DNA from: a virus
Virus record (IMG/VR): IMGVR_UViG_3300047362_001115
Span: 1-36,521 of that record
Strand: one strand, 5' to 3'
DNA length: 36,521 bases
How positions within the stretch are numbered: position 1 is the stretch's first letter; every line of letters starts with the position of its first letter. A program made the translations under genes and the position numbers. A model generated the notes under the pieces. That model was given only the letters and a program-made list of their open reading frames with translations. It ran no database searches and was not told the origin of the DNA. Below, piece by piece: positions 6,148 to 35,456 of this stretch.

Positions 6148-7203
6148 ATGAAAATCTATATAGATGGAGAAGAACTTTCTCCAACTGTTATTGCAGATGC
6201 AATACAAACCCCACGCTACATATCAACAAATACATTAGACTGGAGAGAAAATGTGCTAGGAGCGTTACATGCTTGGCACAATAACACTGGTTTTGGATAT
6301 GGCGAACCCGGAAACGGTTTTTATAATGTAAGTACTAGTGGTACTACAGGATTTCCACAACGTATATCTCATAGCAGAGAAACTATTGAAGAAGCAGTGG
6401 AAGGAAATATAGAACTTTACAATTTAAATAAACATAGTAAAATTTATAGTTTGTATAGTCCAAAAGGAATTGCATGGAGTACGCTGGCTGTACATCTTGC
6501 AGTTAAACTTGATTGTGAGTTATATATTGAAACATACAAAGGATTAGATTATATAAATCGTATTCATACAATACGTCCTACCCATACATTAATACTACCA
6601 AATTTATGGAAACAAATGCATAAGCATCCTAAATGGGAAACATTAGACTATAGTAGTGTTGATACACTCATCATTGGTAGTGATTTTACGCCTAAAGGCA
6701 GTATGGAAGAATTGCGTACACACGGTGCGAATAAAGTTTACAACGTATATGGAAGTAGTGAAGTTCCTCCGGCTTGGTTAATTAGTGAATATGAAAATGA
6801 ATATAGTAGTTCATTATTGCCAAAAGGAATAAGTTTAAAAATAGAAGATGATTGTATTGTTGCTAAGTGGAGTACACAGAATGAATACTGGCATAGTAAT
6901 GACTTAGTTGAAGGTACCTTAGATAGATTTAAACTTAAAGGGCGTAAACATAATATGTTCAAACAAAATACTGAACGAGTTTATCCAGAACAAATAGAAA
7001 AATCAGCAGTAGAATATGGTGCTGATTTATCGTTATGCCAACAAGTAGGAGTTAATTGTATACTACACTATACAGGAAACATGTACGAAGATAAAGTAAA
7101 ACAAACATGGAGTCATATTCCACGTTTTAGGTTAAAGAAAGTCGATGAGATTAAGGTAGACGATAACCTAAAGAAAATAATAAGAACACAAAGTTTTAAA
7201 TAA
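6148..7203 (+). CDS. AMP-forming acyl/aryl ligase of the ANL superfamily (compact)
   Basis: 351 residues with the ANL core motifs in order: the phosphate loop STSGTTGFPQR (62-72), the adenine/Mg motif VYGSSEVPP (200-208, family Y-G-x-T-E), the ribose-binding aspartate in WHSNDLVEG (D252), the hinge GRKHNMFK (265-272), the P-E-Q-I-E strand, and a C-terminal lysine in NLKKIIR (K343) equivalent to the adenylation lysine of G-K-I-x-R. Such enzymes activate a carboxylate as acyl-AMP and pass it to CoA, a carrier or an amine. It is short (MenE-type enzymes are roughly 450) and lacks much of the N-terminal subdomain. The usual hinge Asp is His/Asn here. GGAGGT stands before ATG 6148. Neighbours are an ATP-grasp-like gene and virion-type genes; acyl substrate unknown. 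Confidence 0.85.
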   Translation: MKIYIDGEELSPTVIADAIQTPRYISTNTLDWRENVLGALHAWHNNTGFGYGEPGNGFYNVSTSGTTGFPQRISHSRETIEEAVEGNIELYNLNKHSKIYSLYSPKGIAWSTLAVHLAVKLDCELYIETYKGLDYINRIHTIRPTHTLILPNLWKQMHKHPKWETLDYSSVDTLIIGSDFTPKGSMEELRTHGANKVYNVYGSSEVPPAWLISEYENEYSSSLLPKGISLKIEDDCIVAKWSTQNEYWHSNDLVEGTLDRFKLKGRKHNMFKQNTERVYPEQIEKSAVEYGADLSLCQQVGVNCILHYTGNMYEDKVKQTWSHIPRFRLKKVDEIKVDDNLKKIIRTQSFK

Positions 7204-16919: not shown

Positions 16920-17591
16920 ATGTTTAAGAACTTCGTAAATGGCATCAGTGCTATACTTAACGGCAGTATTGCAATTATAGTACTGGTAGTTGGATTTCAA
17001 ATTTATCCAGCACCCATTGTTCAAGCCGATACAACAGGTATACTACCAGATTATAAGGAAATTAAGCCAGGCGACTATTTGTTTAGTGCTACACTTCCTT
17101 ATGATGCTACAGGTGATGATATTAAATGTCTAGTAGAAAATATGTATCATGAAGCTCGTAGTGATGGTTATGCAGGTATGTATGCAGTAGCAATGGTTAC
17201 ACTGAATCGTGTTGCTGATCCTCGCTATCCAGACACAGTATGTGAAGTTGTTTATCAAGGACCTGTAAGAGAGTCTTGGAAAACTAGACAACATGCAGAT
17301 TTATCTGATAGTGAAAGGATTTATTATCCACGTAAACATAGATGCCAATTTAGTTGGTATTGTGATGGACTAAGTGATAAAATGCATGATACAGATGCTT
17401 TCTTTCAAGCGACAGATATAGCATCACTTGTACTAGCAGGTGCTAATGGAGAATATCCACTAGCGGATATTACTGAAGGAAGTACACACTATCATACAGT
17501 AGATGTATATCCTAATTGGAGACATGATAGAGGTATGATGAAGATAAGCCGTATTGGAGAGCATTTATTTTACAGATGGCAGATTCTCTAA
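16920..17591 (+). CDS. Cell wall hydrolase (SleB/CwlJ family), probable endolysin with N-terminal signal anchor
   Basis: 223 residues. A hydrophobic helix (about 17-28, IAIIVLVVGFQIYPAPIVQA) with a possible cleavage after A36 suggests export as a signal-arrest-release or signal-peptide lysin. The SleB/Hydrolase_2 domain follows: CLVENMYHEARSDGYAGMYAVA (70-91) with the candidate catalytic E78, TLNRV, then CQFSWYCDG and the C-terminal GSTHYHT...NWRHDRGMM...IGEHLFYR. These enzymes cleave peptidoglycan glycan strands. GAGAGGGG precedes ATG 16920. The adjacent SGNH hydrolase overlaps its 3' end by 16 bases, and a holin is not certain; 16285 and 7230 are candidates. Confidence 0.88.
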   Translation: MFKNFVNGISAILNGSIAIIVLVVGFQIYPAPIVQADTTGILPDYKEIKPGDYLFSATLPYDATGDDIKCLVENMYHEARSDGYAGMYAVAMVTLNRVADPRYPDTVCEVVYQGPVRESWKTRQHADLSDSERIYYPRKHRCQFSWYCDGLSDKMHDTDAFFQATDIASLVLAGANGEYPLADITEGSTHYHTVDVYPNWRHDRGMMKISRIGEHLFYRWQIL

Positions 17592-19568: not shown

Positions 19569-20446
19569 ATATTCCCAATCAGCCCTATATATTATTCTTA
19601 GGATCAAGCCATACATATGGCTCTTGTCAAATTGGCGACAACAAGATAATAAACTATGAAAATACTTATCCAAGTATTGTTGGTGAAACACTTGGATATC
19701 CTATAGTTAATTTAGGAATACCTGGAACAGATAATTATCAAATACTACATGTATTACAAGACTGGATCACATACGGTTACATGGATAAATGTGTATTTGT
19801 ATCAGCAGAAATACGCAATCAATTAGAGGGTAGGCTATCAATGGATATGTTAGAACCTTCAATAGATAATAAAAAAGTATTTTCTCCTATATTTAGGGGG
19901 AAAGATTATGAAAAGAATAAACCAAATTCAAATATAAGAATTGAAACTTGGCTAGAAATGGTACATAGACAATACAGTTCTAAGAAGATGCTAAGTGAAA
20001 ATGGTAAAAAGTATTTGAGAGATATGATTGATACGTCAACACACAGTTTTGGAAGTGATCCAATAAGTAATTTAGAATTAGATAACATATACGAATACAT
20101 AAAAAACAAAATAATTATGGAACGCCAAAGTTCTAAAACAACATATGATTTATTATTGTTGGCTAGAGCGATGGTAATGTCTACTAATGTTCCTCTTAGA
20201 TGGTGGACTATGCGAGGTAAATGGCATAAGCAAACATGGTTGTATATTTGTAAGACAATTCCTGATGTTGTAGAGAATAACTTATTCTATGATACAAAAT
20301 TTCCAGAGTACCAATGGGAAATGGAAAAAGAAGCAAAACTAGGATCAGAATATCACTGTGAATGCGAACACTTTAACGCCGAGGGCCATGCATTAATGGC
20401 AAATACAATAATTGATAGAATAGGAAAAATCTTAGATGCAAGATAG
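19544..20446 (+). CDS. SGNH/GDSL-type hydrolase (second of three)
   Basis: 300 residues. Block I is ILFLGSSHTYGSC (nucleophile S22 in the G-x-S position), the next block NLGIPGTDNYQ, and the C-terminal catalytic block CECEHFNAEGHALMA (acidic residue and His). The middle is a long insertion of helical, Lys-rich sequence (about 100-220) not seen in the smaller SGNH protein at 17576. No signal peptide. No ribosome site before ATG 19544; translation may be coupled to the preceding microprotein. Substrate unknown; acyl groups on phage or host glycans are plausible. Confidence 0.75.
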   Translation: MYFDSNSIDIPNQPYILFLGSSHTYGSCQIGDNKIINYENTYPSIVGETLGYPIVNLGIPGTDNYQILHVLQDWITYGYMDKCVFVSAEIRNQLEGRLSMDMLEPSIDNKKVFSPIFRGKDYEKNKPNSNIRIETWLEMVHRQYSSKKMLSENGKKYLRDMIDTSTHSFGSDPISNLELDNIYEYIKNKIIMERQSSKTTYDLLLLARAMVMSTNVPLRWWTMRGKWHKQTWLYICKTIPDVVENNLFYDTKFPEYQWEMEKEAKLGSEYHCECEHFNAEGHALMANTIIDRIGKILDAR

Positions 20447-20732
20447 TATTGTTGAAAATTTAAGACAAGTTTTTGATCCAGAAATAAGTATTAACGTATA
20501 TGATCTAGGATTAATATACGAAATAAATTTAAAAGAAACACATTGTGATATTGTAATGACTTTAACAAGTGCCTTTTGTCCAGCGGCAGATGAGATAATC
20601 GCTGATGTACACGGTGCAGTTTGTGCGGTTGATGGAATAGAAACATGCGATGTAGACATTACGTTTGATCCTCCTTTCGGCCCAGACAAAATGTCAGAAG
20701 ATGTAAAAATGATGCTAGGTGTATGGGAGTAG
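20436..20732 (+). CDS. MIP18/DUF59 Fe-S assembly protein (SufT/PaaD-like)
   Basis: 98 residues covering the full DUF59 fold: QVFDPEISINVYDLGLIYEI (D14-P15-E16 onward), VMTLTSAFCPAADEI with the conserved Cys C48, VDITFDPPFGPDKMSEDVK at the C-terminus. In bacteria this small protein (SufT) helps mature Fe-S proteins. It overlaps the SGNH gene by 11 bases and is the first of several Fe-S genes here (ferredoxin at 21362, CHCC finger at 21718, A-type carrier at 23493). Phage use is unknown; presumably it keeps or redirects cluster insertion during infection. Confidence 0.9.
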   Translation: MQDSIVENLRQVFDPEISINVYDLGLIYEINLKETHCDIVMTLTSAFCPAADEIIADVHGAVCAVDGIETCDVDITFDPPFGPDKMSEDVKMMLGVWE

Positions 20733-21361: not shown

Positions 21362-21718
21362 ATGACATTTATTGTCAATGATGCCTGTATCAAATGCAAA
21401 TATACTGATTGTGTTAGTGTATGTCCTGTAGATTGTTTTTATGAGGGCGAAAACTTTTTGGTAATTAATCCAGATGAATGTATTGATTGTGGTGTTTGTG
21501 AGCCAGAATGTCCGGCAGGCGCAATTCTACCAGATTTAAAACTCGGTGGGGAAGATACGGATTGGGTAGAACTCAATAGAAAATATAGTGAGATTTGGCC
21601 TAATATAACACAACAACGTGAACCGTTACCCGATGCAGATAAATTTAATCCTAAAGAAGGATACGATGGCCCTAGTAAATTACCAGAACTTAGTGAAAAC
21701 CCTGGAAAGGGAGATTAA
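21362..21718 (+). CDS. fdxA: Seven-iron ferredoxin (FdxA, [3Fe-4S][4Fe-4S] type)
   Basis: 118 residues. The cysteines match the Azotobacter FdI pattern shifted by one: C9, C17 and C50 for the 3Fe-4S cluster, C21, C40, C43 and C46 for the 4Fe-4S cluster, with C12 and C25 extra. The C-terminal extension [21 protein letters not shown] is the usual tail of proteobacterial FdxA, strongest in alphaproteobacteria. It is a low-potential electron carrier. A bacterial-type seven-iron ferredoxin in a phage is unusual; cyanophages are known for plant-type [2Fe-2S] ferredoxins. It is flanked by Fe-S assembly genes, so it may be loaded by them. TAATG overlap with the next gene. Confidence 0.92.
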
Positions 21719-23492: not shown

Positions 23493-23861
23493 ATGATAAA
23501 CGTTACTGAAGAAGCAGGCAAGCATCTGCTATCTATTATGGAAACACAAAACAAATACATCATGCTGGGCGTTAAAGGCGGTGGCTGTGCTGGCTTTAGT
23601 TATGATTGGCAATTATTGGATGAAGCACCTACTGATGCAGAAGTAATTAAAATATCTGAAGAACAAAACTTTTATGTTGACAATATGAGTCTTATGTATC
23701 TATTTGGATCGACGGTTGACCTTAAAAAAGATGTATTTGGTACTGTCCTTGAAGTTCAAACTCCTGCCGCTTCTAGTAGTTGTGGTTGTGGTGAAAGTAT
23801 TAATTTTGATATGGATTATATTGATGCTAATATGCCACCTGATTTAGGAAATTGGGACTAA
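23493..23861 (+). CDS. A-type Fe-S cluster carrier (ErpA/IscA/SufA, HesB family)
   Basis: 122 residues; GAGGGGA precedes ATG 23493. The three invariant cysteines are present: GGGCAGFSY (C32) and SSSCGCGESINF (C97, C99). INVTEEAGKHLLSIM and LFGSTVDLK are also family features. These proteins receive Fe-S clusters and pass them to targets. A short acidic tail (DANMPPDLGNWD) extends beyond the usual C-terminus. Together with the SufT-like protein and ferredoxin it forms a phage Fe-S set; A-type carriers are known in some marine phages. Confidence 0.92.
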   Translation: MINVTEEAGKHLLSIMETQNKYIMLGVKGGGCAGFSYDWQLLDEAPTDAEVIKISEEQNFYVDNMSLMYLFGSTVDLKKDVFGTVLEVQTPAASSSCGCGESINFDMDYIDANMPPDLGNWD

Positions 23862-25686: not shown

Positions 25687-26169
25687 ATGGGAACAGGTAA
25701 CACGAGGCGAAATAAAAAATACCGTGCGGTGTTTAAAGAAGCCTTACAGGAGAAAAAATTGAGTAAGCAAGTAGATTTAAATTCATATATGAATTTTGTA
25801 GAAGAAGTAACTAGCGATCAGTCAAATGATATTACAAAAGCAACCGAAGCAATGTATAACTTAGAAAGCTCAGGAGTAAACATTAGTCTGTTACTAACTG
25901 GTGCAGTTGGTATTAGTGCTGAAGGCGGCGAATTTATGGAAATTGTAAAGAAGTGTATCTTTCAAGGCAAACCACTTGACGAAGAAACACAGTTTCATGC
26001 CAAACGAGAACTTGGCGATATTATGTGGTACTGGATTAATGCTTGTAGAGCATTAAACCTAAACCCTAATGAAGTAATAGCAGAAAATGTAAACAAACTT
26101 AAATCTAGATATCCTGGTGGAGAGTTTGACGTACACTATTCTGAAAATAGAAAAGAAGGAGATTTATAA
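25687..26169 (+). CDS. mazG: MazG-like nucleoside triphosphate pyrophosphohydrolase
   Basis: 160 residues; AAGAGG before ATG 25687. The all-alpha NTP-PPase signature is EGGEFMEIVKK (E82, E85) and RELGDIMWYW (E108, D111), fitting E-x-x-E...E-x-x-D, followed by NPNEVIAENVNKLKSRYPGGEFD. MazG removes pyrophosphate from nucleotides and has been linked in cyanophages to lowering ppGpp or adjusting nucleotide pools. The N-terminal 60 residues are a helical extension. Its stop overlaps the next start (TAATG). A ppGpp-hydrolase-like HD protein is encoded at 34956. Confidence 0.88.
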   Translation: MGTGNTRRNKKYRAVFKEALQEKKLSKQVDLNSYMNFVEEVTSDQSNDITKATEAMYNLESSGVNISLLLTGAVGISAEGGEFMEIVKKCIFQGKPLDEETQFHAKRELGDIMWYWINACRALNLNPNEVIAENVNKLKSRYPGGEFDVHYSENRKEGDL

Positions 26170-26861
26170 TGGCAATGGATTGGACAAACGCCGCATTAGC
26201 AGGTAAAATGTATGATGAAGGCCTGCGAAAATTTATGTTAAACATGTATAATCATACTGCATCAGGACTAGCATTAAGTGGTCTTGTTGCATTCTTTGTA
26301 TATAGTACAGGTTTGGTTTATAGCATGGGAGCAATGTTATATCTATTCATGTTTGCACCCCTTGGTATGATTTTATGGTATAGTTTTGCAGGACGTGATT
26401 GGGATTTGAGAACCATCACACTATTTTATTATGCATTTGTATGTGTAATGGGTGTGAGTATGAGTACTATTTTTATTGCATACACGGCAATGAGTATTAC
26501 TAAAGTATTCTTTATTACAAGTGCCACATTTGCGGCCGCTAGTATATATGGTTATAGTACAAAAGCAGACTTGACAAAAATGGGATCCTTTCTTATAATA
26601 GGAATAATAGGTATTATTATTGCAATGATTGTTAATATCTTTATGCAATCACCTGCAATGCATTTTGCTATTAGTATTATTGGCGTACTTATTTTTGTTG
26701 GTATGACAGCATGGGATACTCAGACTGCAAAGAATATGTTCTTGTCTGCTCCTGATATGCAGACTGCTGATAAGTATGGTGTTAGAATGGCGCTTAGTTT
26801 ATACTTAGACTTTGTTAATCTATTCCAATTCCTACTAGCACTATTAGGAAACAGAGAGTAA
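26169..26861 (+). CDS. Bax inhibitor-1/YccA family membrane protein
   Basis: 230 residues, full BI-1 length with about seven membrane segments. Family stretches include DEGLRKFMLNMYNHTASGL (18-36), FAAASIYGYSTKADLTKMGS, and AWDTQTAKNMF, ending YLDFVNLFQFLLALLGNRE. The K-A-D-L-T-x-M-G-S-F-L and D-T-Q motifs are those of alphaproteobacterial homologues. BI-1 proteins are pH- and calcium-linked leak channels, and in bacteria interact with membrane proteases. Rarely noted in phages; a role in timing of host damage or lysis is speculation. AAGGAG upstream; TAATG at both ends. Confidence 0.92.
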   Translation: MAMDWTNAALAGKMYDEGLRKFMLNMYNHTASGLALSGLVAFFVYSTGLVYSMGAMLYLFMFAPLGMILWYSFAGRDWDLRTITLFYYAFVCVMGVSMSTIFIAYTAMSITKVFFITSATFAAASIYGYSTKADLTKMGSFLIIGIIGIIIAMIVNIFMQSPAMHFAISIIGVLIFVGMTAWDTQTAKNMFLSAPDMQTADKYGVRMALSLYLDFVNLFQFLLALLGNRE

Positions 26862-29734: not shown

Positions 29735-30658
29735 ATGGCTAAAGAACTTTGGGTAGAAAAATATCGTCCTGAACGCATAACTGACTATGTGTTTAAAGAC
29801 GTAGCACAACGAAAGCAAGTGCAAAACTGGATTACGGATGGTGGTATCCCACATCTGTTGTTTAGTGGTAGTCCTGGCACAGGTAAAACTACACTAGCAA
29901 AGGTTCTAATCAACGAATTAAATGTTGAAAAAGCAGATGTACTTTATATCAACGCAAGTCGAGACAATGGCGTTGAGATGATTCGTAAAAAGATTAGTGC
30001 TTTTAGTGAAACAATGCCATGGGGTGATTTCAAAATTATTCTGCTGGATGAGGCAGATCATATTAGTCCAGAAGGGCAAGCGGCCTTACGTGGTGTTATG
30101 GAACAGTATCATGCAAGTGTGAGGTTTATCCTAACTTGTAATTATCCTAATATGATTATTCCTGCACTACATAGTAGATGTCAAGGCTTTCATATTGAAC
30201 AACTAGATCAGACAGACTTTACAGTTAGAGTAGGTGAAATTCTAGCGGACAATGAAGTAAAGTTTGATATTGAAACACTTGATGCTATGGTTAGAGCAAA
30301 CTATCCCGATTTGCGTAAAACTATCAATAGTGTACAAATGTGTATTGTAGACGGTACTCTTGCAAAGCCTGATGATGAAGGTGCAAGTGCTGAGTGGCGT
30401 ATGCAAATGGTTGAACTATTTAAGAATAAAAAAATTGCAGAAGCAAGAAAACTAATTGTTGCAAAGGCGAGAACTGATGAGTACAACGACATCTATACAT
30501 GGCTTTACCGTAATCTTGATTTGTATACTGATACTGATGCTCATTATGATGAATGTGTATTGGCTATTCGTAATGGGTTGGTAAAACATACACAGGTAGC
30601 AGACGTAGAAATTAATTTGTCTGCAACTATGATTGAAATAGCACGGGCTCTGAATTGA
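29735..30658 (+). CDS. 44: Clamp loader ATPase subunit (T4 gp44-like, RFC small-subunit family)
   Basis: 307 residues. The RFC box WVEKYRPERITDYVF (6-20), Walker A SGSPGTGKTT (44-53), Walker B ILLDEADH (102-109), sensor 1 TCN (134-136), and the arginine-finger SRC motif (147-149) are all present. It opens and loads the sliding clamp for the gp43-like polymerase. The small subunit gp62 is not recognised next to it; the 30655 product occupies that place but is much longer than gp62 and not similar by eye. Its stop overlaps the next start. Confidence 0.96.
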   Translation: MAKELWVEKYRPERITDYVFKDVAQRKQVQNWITDGGIPHLLFSGSPGTGKTTLAKVLINELNVEKADVLYINASRDNGVEMIRKKISAFSETMPWGDFKIILLDEADHISPEGQAALRGVMEQYHASVRFILTCNYPNMIIPALHSRCQGFHIEQLDQTDFTVRVGEILADNEVKFDIETLDAMVRANYPDLRKTINSVQMCIVDGTLAKPDDEGASAEWRMQMVELFKNKKIAEARKLIVAKARTDEYNDIYTWLYRNLDLYTDTDAHYDECVLAIRNGLVKHTQVADVEINLSATMIEIARALN

Positions 30659-31758
30659 TATATGATAGAAAATACCTAGTAGGAAACACGATTGGAAATA
30701 ATGAGTTAGCGGATAAAATTATATCGCTAAGTCCTAATGTTGAATTGGTGCCCTATAGTTTTTTTCCGTTCGCAGAAACTATCGGTTTATCATTTCATAC
30801 AAAAAAACGTTTACAAGATGAAGATATATGGAAACAAGGTATTGACCATATTAAAACGGAACTGAACTTATTAGAAGCATCAGATAAAAAATTACTGTTG
30901 CAAGATAAGATGAATTATATGATGAGTTGGGATATTTCTGCAACCAACTATATTGCTACCTTTGTAAACAGAACATATTTAGATTTGGTTGGTTTAATAT
31001 CAGAAGAATATGATTTAGAACCATTTAATGAAAATTTTAGTTTAAAAAAGTTTGATGAGGAAGTAAACAATCAACTTGCTGATTACGAAATTATCTATTT
31101 TAATGACACAGATAATATTGTGCTAAAGGTTATTGAAGTACTCAGAGAAAAATACGATGAATTTGCAAAAGTTCCGCAGGATGAAATGTGGGATAGAGTT
31201 TATAATGAGCCTTGGTTTATTATTAAAACATTATTACAAGATACAGTTATTGATCCCTGGAAATTATTAGGAAAAAATTATCCTGTAATTTTCACAAAAC
31301 TATTATCTGAGATTGATATTTTTATGCATAAAGCAGAGCAAAAAATAGCAAAAAGTCAAACGTCAGATGGTATGATTATATTTGATCTAGCAATGCTACA
31401 CTTGCAGTCAAATGGGGAAGCGTGTGATATATACACCCACACATGTAGCCAGTTGGGTATAACTCCTAATTTAGGTAAATTTATTGATTATCATAATGAA
31501 TCAAAATTAGATATTATACACGGAATAGGGACCGAACCACTACCATTAAAATATAAGGATATTATTGAAAGTATAGCAAAGTACTTGCTTAAGGTAGATG
31601 GTGTATTCTTAGATACAACTCTTACTTCTTTACGTTGGAATATATTGTGCCAAGTTGCATTTATAGCCGCTATTAAAAAGTATAATGAAAGTATATCATT
31701 AGAATTTTCTGATTGTGAAACGATTCATGATTTACTATCTAAGATAAATATTAGTTAG
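30655..31758 (+). CDS. Unknown 367-residue protein following the clamp loader
   Basis: Starts most likely at TTG 30655, overlapping the gp44 stop by 4 bases, since the first in-frame ATG would remove about 85 residues. Helical throughout, rich in Asp, Asn and Ile/Leu; distinctive stretches are YSFFPFAETIGLSFHTKKRL, LLGKNYPVIFTKLLSE and SSLRWN-type TLTSLRWNILCQVA. Not similar to gp62 by eye. The unusual start codon may keep its level low. It links the clamp loader to the ExbB/ExbD-like genes on one transcript. Confidence 0.7.
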   Translation: MIYDRKYLVGNTIGNNELADKIISLSPNVELVPYSFFPFAETIGLSFHTKKRLQDEDIWKQGIDHIKTELNLLEASDKKLLLQDKMNYMMSWDISATNYIATFVNRTYLDLVGLISEEYDLEPFNENFSLKKFDEEVNNQLADYEIIYFNDTDNIVLKVIEVLREKYDEFAKVPQDEMWDRVYNEPWFIIKTLLQDTVIDPWKLLGKNYPVIFTKLLSEIDIFMHKAEQKIAKSQTSDGMIIFDLAMLHLQSNGEACDIYTHTCSQLGITPNLGKFIDYHNESKLDIIHGIGTEPLPLKYKDIIESIAKYLLKVDGVFLDTTLTSLRWNILCQVAFIAAIKKYNESISLEFSDCETIHDLLSKINIS

Positions 31759-31770
31759 AGGAATCCAAAA

Positions 31771-32220
31771 ATGTCTACTAAATTTTTAAAATGGTGGTTT
31801 GCCTTTGTAGTTCAAACTATCGCACTAGGTATTGTTTTCTACTTTGAGGGTGGACAATATCTATATGAAAACGATAAAACTTATATTAGTTTTTTCATCG
31901 TTGGCGTATGGCTTATAACAAGTCTAAGCATTGCTTGGACTGTTTGGAAAAAGCAAGAAACAAAAGAAATGCAGTGGTTTACAGCCGATAGTTGTATGAC
32001 ACTGGGTATGATTGGAACTGTAACAGGATTTATTATCATGTTGGGTGGTAGTCTAGGTGAAATTGATCCTAGTGATACACAACAAATGAAGGCTGTTATC
32101 GGTGATATGGCAACAGGAATGAGTACGGCGTTGTTAACAACATTGGCTGGATTGATTGCTAGTTTGTTCCTTCGTATGCAACTAGTATTGGCTGATAAAG
32201 ATGAAACGCAGATACAGTAG
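31771..32220 (+). CDS. ExbB/TolQ/MotA-like proton channel subunit
   Basis: 149 residues; AGAGGA before ATG 31771. Four membrane segments at about 7-25, 38-58, 74-94 and 114-136. The third and fourth carry the ExbB/TolQ signatures CMTLGMIGTVTGFIIMLGG (with T83) and MATGMSTALLTTLAGLIA (with T124), the Thr positions that face the proton path in ExbB. The family forms pentamers around two ExbD/TolR helices to turn proton flow into mechanical work. It is smaller than bacterial ExbB (about 240) because the cytoplasmic loops are short. The next gene encodes an ExbD-like partner and overlaps by 20 bases. Very unusual for a phage. Confidence 0.85.
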   Translation: MSTKFLKWWFAFVVQTIALGIVFYFEGGQYLYENDKTYISFFIVGVWLITSLSIAWTVWKKQETKEMQWFTADSCMTLGMIGTVTGFIIMLGGSLGEIDPSDTQQMKAVIGDMATGMSTALLTTLAGLIASLFLRMQLVLADKDETQIQ

Positions 32221-32842
32221 TAACCTTGCTTATATTGATATGCTTTTTAATGTTTTGATTGGCTTTGTTATGCTATTCATAATAGCATTTCTTATGATTA
32301 ATCCAATTACTAAAAAAGAAGATATTCCAACAAAAGCAGAAATAATGATTATACTTGAATGGGACGATGAGTCTGCTGATGATATAGACTTATGGGTATT
32401 ACCAGAAAATGTTGATGGTATTCCTATTAGTTTCAAATCAAGAGATGTTGGTTTTTGGCATTTAGATAGAGATGATTTAGGACATGCAAATGACCAAGTC
32501 AGATTAGATGGCATGCTTGTTATTCTAAAAAACAATAGAGAAGTGGCTTCAATGCGAGGCATACTTCCAGGAGATGTTTTAGTTAACGTGCATGTGTATA
32601 ATAAATCTAAAAATGAACCTACTCCTATAAAAGTAACCTATATAGATGTAAATCCGTATAAAGAACATTTTATATGGACTGGTGTGGCCACAACCCAGGG
32701 CCAAACATTCGCATTACCAGGATTTACTGTTGATAAAGAAGGTAATGTTAGTAATGTATTCAAACATAATGAAAAGTTTGCTGCCAAACGGCCGCCTGGT
32801 GAAGGCAGAACAGACTTAGAACATCAGAGGTCAATACCATGA
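32201..32842 (+). CDS. ExbD/TolR-like membrane protein with large extracytoplasmic domain
   Basis: 213 residues. One N-terminal membrane helix, LAYIDMLFNVLIGFVMLFIIAFLMI (9-33), begins with the Asp (D13) and M-x-x-x-L pattern of ExbD/TolR, where that Asp carries the proton. The rest is extracytoplasmic, beta-rich, with DESADDIDLWVLPENVDGI (about 56-74) and WHLDRDDLGHAND, which recalls beta-sandwich domains of the DUF2135 type (D-I-D-L-x-V-x-x-P) and not the usual small ExbD periplasmic domain. The pairing with the ExbB-like gene is the best support. Overlap of 20 bases upstream, 4 bases (ATGA) downstream. Confidence 0.8.
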   Translation: MKRRYSSNLAYIDMLFNVLIGFVMLFIIAFLMINPITKKEDIPTKAEIMIILEWDDESADDIDLWVLPENVDGIPISFKSRDVGFWHLDRDDLGHANDQVRLDGMLVILKNNREVASMRGILPGDVLVNVHVYNKSKNEPTPIKVTYIDVNPYKEHFIWTGVATTQGQTFALPGFTVDKEGNVSNVFKHNEKFAAKRPPGEGRTDLEHQRSIP

Positions 32843-33324
32843 TAACAAGTTATATAGTAGGTTTGTTTATACTAGCGGCGATTAGTGTTTATTCATTAAT
32901 TGTTAGTAGAACAAATAGGTTATTAGTATTTTTACTTGTGCCGAGTATGTTAGTAATGAGTTTATTTACATGGAAGGTAATATTAGAACTTCAAGGTACA
33001 CCAATAAAAGGATATCCAATTGATGAGAGGATAGAAATAATCTATATCTATAAACAGAAGCCTGAAATAATGTTTTTAGCAAAAAAAGAAGGCGAGAATA
33101 TTCCAACGTATTACATTATCCCATGGACAGAAGAAAACGCACAAAAAATGGCAGTACTCGAACGTATAAAAGAAATGGGAGTGGATGTTGAAGGGAAGTT
33201 TAAAGAAACAAAGAACGGACACAATAGTCAAAGTAGTAGTATCTATTGGGAACAGACAAGCGACTTTATTAAGGCAAATCCAAAAAACAAACCAAAAGTA
33301 AGACAAGAAGAACCTAGAAATTAA
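32839..33324 (+). CDS. Membrane protein, third member of the ExbB/ExbD-like set
   Basis: 161 residues in ATGA overlap with the ExbD-like gene. Two membrane helices, ITSYIVGLFILAAISVYSLI (2-21) and LLVFLLVPSMLVMSLFTW (28-45), then a soluble beta/alpha domain (EIIYIYKQKPEIMFLAKKEG) and a basic, Asn-rich tail. No family recognised. Located last before the terminator at 33347, so it is probably a dedicated partner of the channel-like pair. Confidence 0.75.
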   Translation: MITSYIVGLFILAAISVYSLIVSRTNRLLVFLLVPSMLVMSLFTWKVILELQGTPIKGYPIDERIEIIYIYKQKPEIMFLAKKEGENIPTYYIIPWTEENAQKMAVLERIKEMGVDVEGKFKETKNGHNSQSSSIYWEQTSDFIKANPKNKPKVRQEEPRN

Positions 33325-33346
33325 TCAAAAGATTTATAACCTATTG

Positions 33347-33376
33347 AAAGTGCAGGAAACTTTTCTGCACTTTTTT
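33347..33376 (+). terminator. Intrinsic terminator after the ExbB/ExbD-like run
   Basis: Stem AAAGTGCAG (33347-33355) with CTGCACTTT (33365-33373), 9 bp, loop of 9 bases, followed by T to 33376. The lead-in TAACCTATTG is shared with the terminator at 14451. A promoter starts 2 bases after it. Confidence 0.85.
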
Positions 33377-33377
33377 G

Positions 33378-33406
33378 TTGACAAGTAAGGCATCTTACTG
33401 TAATAT
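33378..33406 (+). promoter_or_regulatory. Sigma70 promoter with palindromic spacer element (copy 1)
   Basis: TTGACA 33378-33383, TAATAT 33401-33406, spacing 17. The spacer holds the palindrome AGTAAG-GCAT-CTTACT (33384-33399), a likely operator. It drives the small exported protein and the secreted hydrolase. Confidence 0.82.
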
Positions 33407-33649: not shown

Positions 33650-34522
33650 ATGTTACGTTATATTCTAGTAGCAATCGCTACCTTTGCCTATTCTGCACAA
33701 GCAGAAACTATACAAGACAATGTTCGCGGAATGAAGTTTGCTTATGAAGTTTATTCGCCAAATATAAGCGATCCTGTTCCAGTAATTATTAGTTTACACG
33801 GCAGTAGTCGAGATGGACAATATCTATCTAATGGTGTTGCTCGTACTGACGAATACACAACTCGCATTATTAAGGAAGGCAACAAACGTGGCTTTGCAGT
33901 TGTTGCCATTGATGCATTTTATCAATCTAATTTACAACCGCATAATAAAACAATGTTTCCTGCCGCTTGGCGCATGGCAGTTAAAATTAAAAGCATATTA
34001 GAACAAAATCCTAACTATACAGATTTTTATCTTACAGGATTTAGTTATGGTGCTGGTCAAACAATGTCTGTAAATGATGCACGTTTAACATATAAGAAAC
34101 AACCATGGAAAGCAGTAGCAGGCGCCGCTCCTGGGTGTAACCGATTTAGTGAGCCAGTAAAGTTTGATTACCCTATTGCTATATTCAAAGGTGAGAAAGA
34201 CCATTATTCACCTAGAGCTTGTAAATTTTATGCAAATATGTTAATTAAGGCAAATAATAACGTTACATTTGAAATTATACCTAAGGTTAATCACTTCTTT
34301 AGTACTGATGAGGGTATTGTAGATGGCAAAGCACAGAACGGTTGTACAGATAATCCTATTATACGTTATCCAGATGGTAGTATGAAGTTTTTAGACGGAA
34401 CTGGTATAAGTAAACGACAATCTCGCAGTGCTTGTTTAACAAATCAATCTGGTAAAGGGAAAGATCGCCTAAAGTTAGATATAGTAGTGAAAAAAGTTGT
34501 AACTTTTTTCGAAAAAATGTAA
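33650..34522 (+). CDS. Secreted alpha/beta hydrolase (dienelactone-hydrolase/esterase-like)
   Basis: 290 residues; GGAG before ATG 33650. A signal peptide (LRYILVAIATFAYSAQA, cleavage after A18) points to the periplasm. The catalytic set is visible: oxyanion/strand VIISLHGSSRDG (45-56), nucleophile elbow LTGFSYGAG (S132), acid in KGEKDHYS (D184), and histidine in KVNHFF (H215). The domain resembles polyhydroxybutyrate depolymerase or feruloyl-esterase-like serine hydrolases. After about 225 the sequence is Cys- and Lys-rich. Secreted serine hydrolases are unusual in T4-like phages; target may be envelope esters, but the substrate is unknown. Confidence 0.85.
   Translation: MLRYILVAIATFAYSAQAETIQDNVRGMKFAYEVYSPNISDPVPVIISLHGSSRDGQYLSNGVARTDEYTTRIIKEGNKRGFAVVAIDAFYQSNLQPHNKTMFPAAWRMAVKIKSILEQNPNYTDFYLTGFSYGAGQTMSVNDARLTYKKQPWKAVAGAAPGCNRFSEPVKFDYPIAIFKGEKDHYSPRACKFYANMLIKANNNVTFEIIPKVNHFFSTDEGIVDGKAQNGCTDNPIIRYPDGSMKFLDGTGISKRQSRSACLTNQSGKGKDRLKLDIVVKKVVTFFEKM
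34490..34509 (+). terminator. Possible A/T-rich hairpin terminator inside gene end
   Basis: AAAAAAGT (34490-34497) pairs with ACTTTTTT (34502-34509), loop TGTA, located within the last codons of the secreted hydrolase gene, followed shortly by another promoter. AT-only stem is weak, so confidence is low. Confidence 0.3.
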
Positions 34523-34593: not shown

Positions 34594-34947
34594 ATGCAAA
34601 AACAAATTGAAACACTTATTAATGATATCGTTAACGATTATGCTAACTGGCAAGAACGTTGTTCGGTTGCCGCTGGCGAAACTGAAAAGAGTCAAGTTAA
34701 GAAAGACATGTTTGCTAAGTTTAAAAACGGTGTTACTTATAAAGAAGGTAGCAAATACGTTAAAATCTTTAACGAGGGTGGATCTGTATGGGGTTTTGTT
34801 GTTAATACAGATAACGACAAAAAATTTAAAAAAGGTGATATCCTGAAAGCGGCAGGTTGGAATGCTCCAGCCCGTAATGCGGCAAGGGGTAACATTATTG
34901 ATGGCGGTTACATGATCCAATGGACTGGTCCGCTTTACTTGAAATAA
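34594..34947 (+). CDS. Conserved small phage protein of unknown function
   Basis: 117 residues from ATG 34594 (TTGGAG upstream); a TTG at 34582 is in frame but is part of the ribosome site. Two distinctive stretches are DYANWQERCSVAAGETEKS and SVWGFVVNTDNDKKFKKGDILKAAGWNAPARNAARGNI, ending WTGPLYLK. This type is recurrent in marine phages. It has a beta-barrel look at the C-terminus and no catalytic motif I can name. Behind a strong promoter with operator-like palindrome, so probably early. Confidence 0.8.
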   Translation: MQKQIETLINDIVNDYANWQERCSVAAGETEKSQVKKDMFAKFKNGVTYKEGSKYVKIFNEGGSVWGFVVNTDNDKKFKKGDILKAAGWNAPARNAARGNIIDGGYMIQWTGPLYLK

Positions 34948-34955
34948 GGGTTTGT

Positions 34956-35456
34956 ATGTTGGATCAAGTATTACAATTCGCAACAGAGGCACATGGAGGT
35001 CAAGTCAGAAAATACACTGGCTTGCCCTATGTAACTCATGTCCAAGAAGTTGCTAGTATTGTTGCAGAGCATGGTGGTACTGATGAAATGATTGCGGCCG
35101 CTTTATTGCATGATACTGTAGAAGATACACCAACAACGTTTGAGGACATACGTTCTAGATTTGGAGACGATGTAACTCACTTTGTGTGGTTTCTTACAGA
35201 TATAAGTCGTCCTGAAGATGGTAATCGTGCAGTACGAAAAGCAATGGACAGAGCACATGTTGCCAGAGGTCCAAAGGAAGTTCAAGTTATTAAGTTGGCT
35301 GACATGATTAGCAACGGAAAAGATATCTTGACAAACGATCCTAGTTTTGCTAAAGTATATATACCTGAACTAAGAGCATTGCTCGATAGTTTAACACTTG
35401 TAAAGGATCATCCTTTATATAGTAAGGCAATGGAGATTGTAGATGTGGCAGTTTGA
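34956..35456 (+). CDS. HD-domain (p)ppGpp hydrolase-like protein (SpoT/MESH1 type)
   Basis: 166 residues from ATG 34956 (AAGGG upstream); a longer frame reaches into the previous gene. The HD hydrolase signature is complete: AHGGQVRKYTGLPYVTHVQE (12-31, ligand H28), LLHDTVEDTPTTFEDI (H52, D53; the E-D-T helix), and IKLADMISN (D116). Its size equals the stand-alone small alarmone hydrolases (MESH1), with no synthetase domain. It would remove the 3' pyrophosphate from ppGpp and relax the stringent response. With MazG at 25687 it makes a second possible anti-stringent factor. Overlaps the next gene by 14 bases. Confidence 0.9.
   Translation: MLDQVLQFATEAHGGQVRKYTGLPYVTHVQEVASIVAEHGGTDEMIAAALLHDTVEDTPTTFEDIRSRFGDDVTHFVWFLTDISRPEDGNRAVRKAMDRAHVARGPKEVQVIKLADMISNGKDILTNDPSFAKVYIPELRALLDSLTLVKDHPLYSKAMEIVDVAV

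Follow-up and report, generated by a model that had tools for sequence, protein, structure and literature searches.

Ion-driven motors of the MotA/ExbB type are at work in flagella and gliding, in uptake and upkeep of the envelope, and in defence. To our knowledge, no motor of this type has been known as a phage's own machine. The closest described systems are the MotA–MotB stator, ExbB–ExbD with TonB, TolQ–TolR with TolA, and the ZorA–ZorB pair of the anti-phage system Zorya. A filamentous phage exploits the TolQR of its host, which is a different matter from the genes described here (PMC10424213). The only phage-borne ExbB found in our literature search is that of Lentisphaerae phages (PMC11361711). 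Like the locus described here, it is a phage-borne gene of ExbB annotation; unlike it, the Lentisphaerae gene is read as one for polysaccharide uptake, and the part of that account available to us describes neither B and C partners nor a link to lysis (PMC11361711).

We analyzed a stretch of viral DNA of 36,521 nucleotides (the window), which spans the 36.5-kb virus record IMGVR_UViG_3300047362_001115. Three of its genes, here named A, B, and C, encode a motor-like trio. We assign a probability of roughly 55% to the reading that the trio is a proton-motive-force-dependent motor of the A5B2 type, with C as its effector, acting on the cell wall during lysis. Our literature search, which could miss an account in a subscription journal or a preprint, returned no described counterpart of the trio.

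Table 1. Features of the trio locus, and the separate cell wall hydrolase, in window coordinates.
Feature	Coordinates	Strand	Description
SleB-type cell wall hydrolase	16920..17591	+	N-terminal hydrophobic segment; apart from the trio
Clamp-loader ATPase	29735..30658	+	Pfam AAA and Gp44 lid; upstream of the trio in the same apparent operon
367-aa protein	30655..31758	+	family unassigned; between clamp loader and gene A, with a 12-base gap to A
Gene A	31771..32220	+	149 aa; short MotA/TolQ/ExbB-family protein; four predicted transmembrane helices; no long cytoplasmic tail
Gene B	32201..32842	+	213 aa; one transmembrane helix with invariant Asp13, then a periplasmic beta-sandwich
Gene C	32839..33324	+	161 aa; transmembrane hairpin and small alpha/beta domain, predicted periplasmic
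Stem-loop, then U-run	33346..33374	+	directly 3′ of C; folding: -14.9 kcal/mol, z -3.8

The three open reading frames lie on one strand (Table 1) and overlap as the sequence-only reading had reported, A with B by 20 bases and B with C by an ATGA, and the third frame does encode a two-helix membrane protein. A purine-rich, ribosome-binding-like sequence (gagga) lies 5′ of the ATG of gene A, and the stem-loop and U-run behind C probably form an intrinsic terminator that closes the operon; a consensus terminator scan missed this hairpin, which was detected by folding instead. The trio stands 3′ of a clamp loader and the 367-aa gene and is ended by the hairpin, so that it resembles the tail end of an operon of replication genes; the clamp loader is also its neighbour in 2 close relatives of the window (L313 and L318). 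The SleB-type hydrolase is likely the endolysin of the window's own phage. For the DNA polymerase of the window, the nearest counterparts (about 47–50%) are in Phosso and Atu_ph07, large phages of Sinorhizobium and Agrobacterium.

Downstream of the trio lie a promoter-like site (TTGACA-17-TAATAT, 33378–33406), a gene for a probable secreted alpha/beta hydrolase with a signal-like N-terminus and a weak BD-FAE match below cut-off (33650–34522), and an HD-domain protein (34920–35456; HD_4, E 9e-18) that resembles (p)ppGpp hydrolases of the MESH1/SpoT kind. Elsewhere, the window encodes a Bax1-I/YccA-type membrane protein (26169–26861; Pfam E 1e-49; NCBIfam YccA, FtsH modulator, 3e-11) and a short AMP-binding, acyl-CoA ligase-like enzyme (6148–7203; Pfam E 8e-12). 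Three iron-sulphur genes lie within 3.5 kb of one another (20436–20732, 21362–21718, and 23493–23861) and comprise FeS_assembly_P (MIP18-like), a 4Fe-4S ferredoxin, and an IscA-like Fe-S_biosyn protein.

A-B-C is an obligate module. Across 176 non-redundant loci from IMG/VR and phage genomes, A precedes B in 174 of 174 and C is present in 168 of 169; the sole locus with no recognised C (L027) has a C-like two-helix frame in its place. A reciprocal search from A found B following in every case (54/54) and C present likewise (49/49). Co-occurrence of the three genes across phage genomes, set beforehand as a test that could refute the proposal, was found everywhere it was tested. When the neighbours were clustered, no fourth conserved partner was found.

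IMG/VR scans identified a relative of B in at least 417 stretches. A tblastn search of B against 50,697 phage records returned 27 matches, all in Rhizobium or Sinorhizobium phages, and these span lineages as unlike as the T4-like Pootjesviridae and the temperate phage 16-3, where the trio corresponds to p038, p040, and p042, all unnamed there. The order A-B-C is kept in the rhizobiophages examined, sometimes interrupted by homing endonucleases or other genes; those between trio genes in L008, L009, and L010 are HNH or Seg-like. In GTDB, only three bacterial genomes matched, from a single strict pattern, and they resemble prophages. In L318 (4074–5156), a close relative of the window, a Rieske/ring-hydroxylase-like gene (weak Pfam match) separates B from C, and a B–C spacing of about 1.3 kb is also seen in L269, L270, and L286.

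The neighbours of the trio vary: a clamp loader in the window and its 2 relatives, a DNA polymerase in L015 and others, a topoisomerase and a sigma factor in Pootjesviridae. The trio moves between contexts as a block, and in most lytic phages it adjoins replication genes (clamp loader, DNA polymerase, RNase H). In the temperate rhizobial clade, a secreted trypsin-like protease (PF13365, E 2e-20) often lies directly 5′ of A, as at L002:6271–7170 and relatives; RHph_N3_19 has it a few genes downstream instead. An HMM search of the flanks in the window and in marine loci L011–L016 did not find this protease, so it is not a core part of the module. Measured against annotation databases, where none of A, B, or C matches a PHROG, the initial surprise at a motor in a T4-like phage was justified, although the number of stretches that encode B makes the module common.

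The likeness of A to known channel proteins is not due to chance: A is a genuine MotA/TolQ/ExbB-family protein. It matches Pfam MotA_ExbB (PF01618) at E 1.9e-8, with 34.6 bits against a curated cut-off of 22.9 that is also reached by the A copies of L027, L117, and L128. Both signatures behind the original ExbB/TolQ-like claim are present, LGMIGTVTGF and GMSTALLTTLAGL; the signature residues are G79-x-x-G82-T83 and T124-x-x-G127. Among 133 non-redundant relatives, conservation is 100% at G82 and G127, 98.5% at T124, and 85.7% at T83 (Asn in 18), and D35, which follows the first transmembrane helix and precedes the second, is kept in 132 of 132. A single-protein scan of IMG/VR using A gave no matches; alignments were required. 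The best library match of A is ZorA (PADLOC models, E 8.7e-8), and its family profile matched the PDB in the order ZorA (3e-5), MotA (1e-4), TolQ (0.014), and then ExbB. Like MotA, A combines four predicted transmembrane helices with the MotA_ExbB signature; unlike MotA, it has no large cytoplasmic part.

In the AlphaFold2 model of B (pLDDT 82.5), a long helix (residues 7–33) is followed by a beta-sandwich (residues 48–177). The helix does begin with Asp, as had been noticed: D13 starts the sole transmembrane helix of B and is invariant in 137 of 137 non-redundant relatives. W54, D61, D63, L88, D91, G94, and E114 are likewise 100% conserved (133–137 relatives), and W54, D61, D63, D91, G94, and E114 may form a metal or ligand site. 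In profile–profile comparisons, with six helix segments taken from A and C as controls, the helix aligned gapless and Asp on Asp both with the ZorB/MotB helix (E 2.7e-4; controls 0.03–0.36) and with the ExbD helix (E 2.6e-3; controls 0.02–0.66); on these alignments, it is nearer to ZorB/MotB than to ExbD.

The periplasmic domain of B was compared with the same families. Pfam ExbD (PF02472) matched neither the window's B nor members of the B family, and an ExbD HMM run at full sensitivity against the family reached at best E 0.008 (L027). The closest fold in the PDB was DUF4425 (E 0.02, not significant), with no ExbD or TolR among the matches listed. DUF2135 (YfaP; E 0.081) and ZorB1 (E 0.026) gave hints only, each in one member, and all viral-library matches of B were to unnamed or uncharacterised proteins. 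On HMM and fold, we reject the identification of B as ExbD. Neither Pfam, HMM, nor fold comparison links the periplasmic part, a predicted beta-sandwich, to ExbD/TolR, so the "ExbD" label is only half right: the Asp13-bearing transmembrane helix of the ExbD/TolR-like claim stands, its periplasmic domain does not, and the helix itself leans to ZorB/MotB. B is a B-subunit by its helix only.

Taken as a pair, A and B resemble ZorAB, with A best matching ZorA among both solved structures and defence models and the Asp helix of B aligning gapless with that of ZorB/MotB. Unlike ZorAB, A has 149 residues and none of ZorA's long tail, B carries a beta-sandwich in place of the OmpA-like peptidoglycan-binding domain, and the trio is phage-encoded, has C, and has no ZorC, ZorD, or ZorE recognised nearby. 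The comparison with MotA–MotB is similar; B has a MotB-like Asp helix, but neither an OmpA-like domain nor a flagellar context. A stripped-down ZorAB-like motor could sense or perturb the envelope at the moment of injection by another phage, or act as a decoy for host Zorya, and such a role in superinfection exclusion or counter-defence would draw on the ZorA and ZorB/MotB matches, on the middle-gene location, and on the presence of the trio in temperate prophages too. We consider this unlikely, given the missing tail, OmpA-like domain, and Zorya partners, and because an active lysozyme on C (described below) makes little sense in a protective device. No direct evidence was found for the idea that the motor blocks other phages.

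C, with its two helices, belongs to a family not described before. Its predicted model (pLDDT 80.5) places transmembrane helices at residues 2–22 and 27–52, ahead of a small alpha/beta domain; beyond PHROG, Pfam also gave no sequence match, and the PDB gave no significant fold match. The turn that joins the two helices is positively charged, from which we infer a periplasmic C-terminus for unfused C, and the lysozyme fusion supports this orientation.

The complete trio recalls ExbB–ExbD–TonB and TolQ–TolR–TolA: A shares their Pfam family, the single transmembrane helix of B bears an Asp, and the third member is again a transmembrane protein with a periplasmic domain, the position that TonB or TolA fills there. 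It differs in that B has no ExbD/TolR domain by HMM or fold, and C, a transmembrane hairpin, matches neither TonB nor TolA. Used in place of TolQR or ExbBD, the trio might sustain the outer membrane or uptake in infected cells as a form of auxiliary metabolism. This would suit the family of A, the uptake reading given to ExbB in Lentisphaerae phages (PMC11361711), and a full SbmA/BacA peptide-transporter gene (E 2.7e-139) directly 3′ of the trio in a close marine relative (L311:3185–4156). We regard such an envelope or nutrient role as very unlikely, for B does not carry a TolR/ExbD domain, the trio includes no TonB, TolA, or Pal partner, and C is found fused to a lysozyme.

In 13 marine contigs, representing 9 non-redundant tips that form one clade of the B tree with weak node support, C runs on into a complete phage lysozyme. 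The four fused copies tested (L123, L128, L131, and L136) match Phage_lysozyme (PF00959) at E 5e-47 to 6e-50, and the E-8-D-5-T catalytic triad is intact in every fused copy, so that the enzyme looks active. Fused C retains the full C domain and its position in the trio, and has diverged widely. Lysozyme acts only outside the inner membrane; the C-terminus of fused C must therefore be periplasmic.

The sister phage L155 points to the origin of the fusion. There, a stand-alone lysozyme gene follows a gene of the 112-aa type; its product has a hydrophobic N-terminus and is 67% identical to the lysozyme on C of L128. The same synteny slot holds this lysozyme in L155, a SleB hydrolase in L132, and no endolysin in the fused L128, and a whole-record search of a 25-kb fused contig found only the fused lysozyme and no SleB. 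On this synteny and the lone lysozyme, the fusion most probably arose by transfer of the phage's own endolysin to C. Phage endolysins with membrane-held N-termini (SAR or signal-anchor lysozymes) are a close known parallel, given the hydrophobic N-terminus of the related L155 lysozyme; the fused enzyme differs in riding on the third protein of the motor-like trio.

Because the fusion puts a peptidoglycan hydrolase on C, we favour the reading of the trio as a proton-motive-force-dependent machine that would act on the wall during lysis. Being of one monophyletic origin, the fusion may instead show only that C was a handy membrane anchor, picked up by chance by a lysozyme that already had a hydrophobic N-terminus, while the trio has an unrelated job. 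We judge this improbable: fused C has diverged widely and yet remains complete, in its usual position in the trio and with the triad intact, the stand-alone endolysin is gone from its slot in L128, and unrelated endolysins accompany the trio in temperate phages as well. Fifteen loci of the temperate rhizobial type have an endolysin 1.6–5.5 kb upstream of the trio on the same strand; these enzymes are GH24 lysozymes or GH19-like, non-homologous to each other. Some of the endolysins linked to the trio bear N-terminal hydrophobic segments of the membrane-held kind.

Collapse of the membrane potential is a known trigger of membrane-held endolysins. Homologues of ion channels such as A and B could therefore act as a gated, pinholin-like proton leak rather than a mechanical motor, collapsing the potential and releasing or activating the linked endolysins that have hydrophobic N-termini. 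This account is decidedly unlikely in our view, as it accounts neither for the periplasmic residues that are invariant in B nor for the obligatory presence of C, and the Asp helix of B is conserved as in working motors, unlike simple pores.

In the motor reading that we favour, A, B, and C would assemble into one inner-membrane complex, arranged as in MotAB, TolQR, ExbBD, and ZorAB: A would form the ion-channel ring, and the Asp helix of B would carry the protons; an A5B2 stoichiometry would be expected by homology. Proton flow through A and B would move the periplasmic beta-sandwich of B, and C, with its hairpin and periplasmic domain, would serve as effector or adaptor, passing the action to the cell wall as TonB and TolA do. 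The motor would position, energise, or time peptidoglycan cutting within the lysis programme. Phage lysis clocks already read the membrane potential, which might be the power or the timing signal of this machine. In one clade the endolysin is part of C itself; in others, including the window's phage, a separate endolysin would work beside the motor.

The motor-like core of A and B is well supported by sequence; the stoichiometry, proton conduction, and lysis role we infer, the last, first raised as a motor to power lysis, with independent support from the fusion. Several observations speak against a lysis role. The lysozyme of L155 comes with a hydrophobic N-terminal segment even when unfused, and the usual setting of the trio in lytic phages is one of middle genes, not a lysis cassette. 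The T4 late-promoter motif TATAAATA occurs 0 times on both strands of the window, against 6.9 expected from dinucleotide shuffles (sd 2.6), and the B and C domains have no significant fold match in the PDB. Overall, the interpretation offered by the sequence-only reading is partly supported: in the family of A, the Asp helix of B, the co-occurrence, and the link to lysis, but not in the ExbD/TolR domain or the blocking of phages.

The ion-driven A and B parts are of a known kind; in the databases and literature searched, there was no precedent for the domain of B, the family of C, the phage setting, or the endolysin link. A motor-like trio that is inseparable in many marine and rhizobial phages, and whose C is fused to lysozyme in some of them, suggests a membrane motor that opens the host wall. 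We tentatively extend this, at somewhat under even odds, to an undescribed lysis machine in a large part of marine T4-like and alphaproteobacterial temperate phages: a rotary or gated proton motor of the inner membrane, with a peptidoglycan cutter carried or driven by its third subunit. Since the invariant residues can be mutated and the trio is present in the long-studied Rhizobium phage 16-3 (p038-p040-p042), its role is directly testable. Ocean phage contigs often carry the trio. Should it drive lysis, this would constitute a new way to time or power host killing at sea, and three gene families that have no PHROG would be explained.
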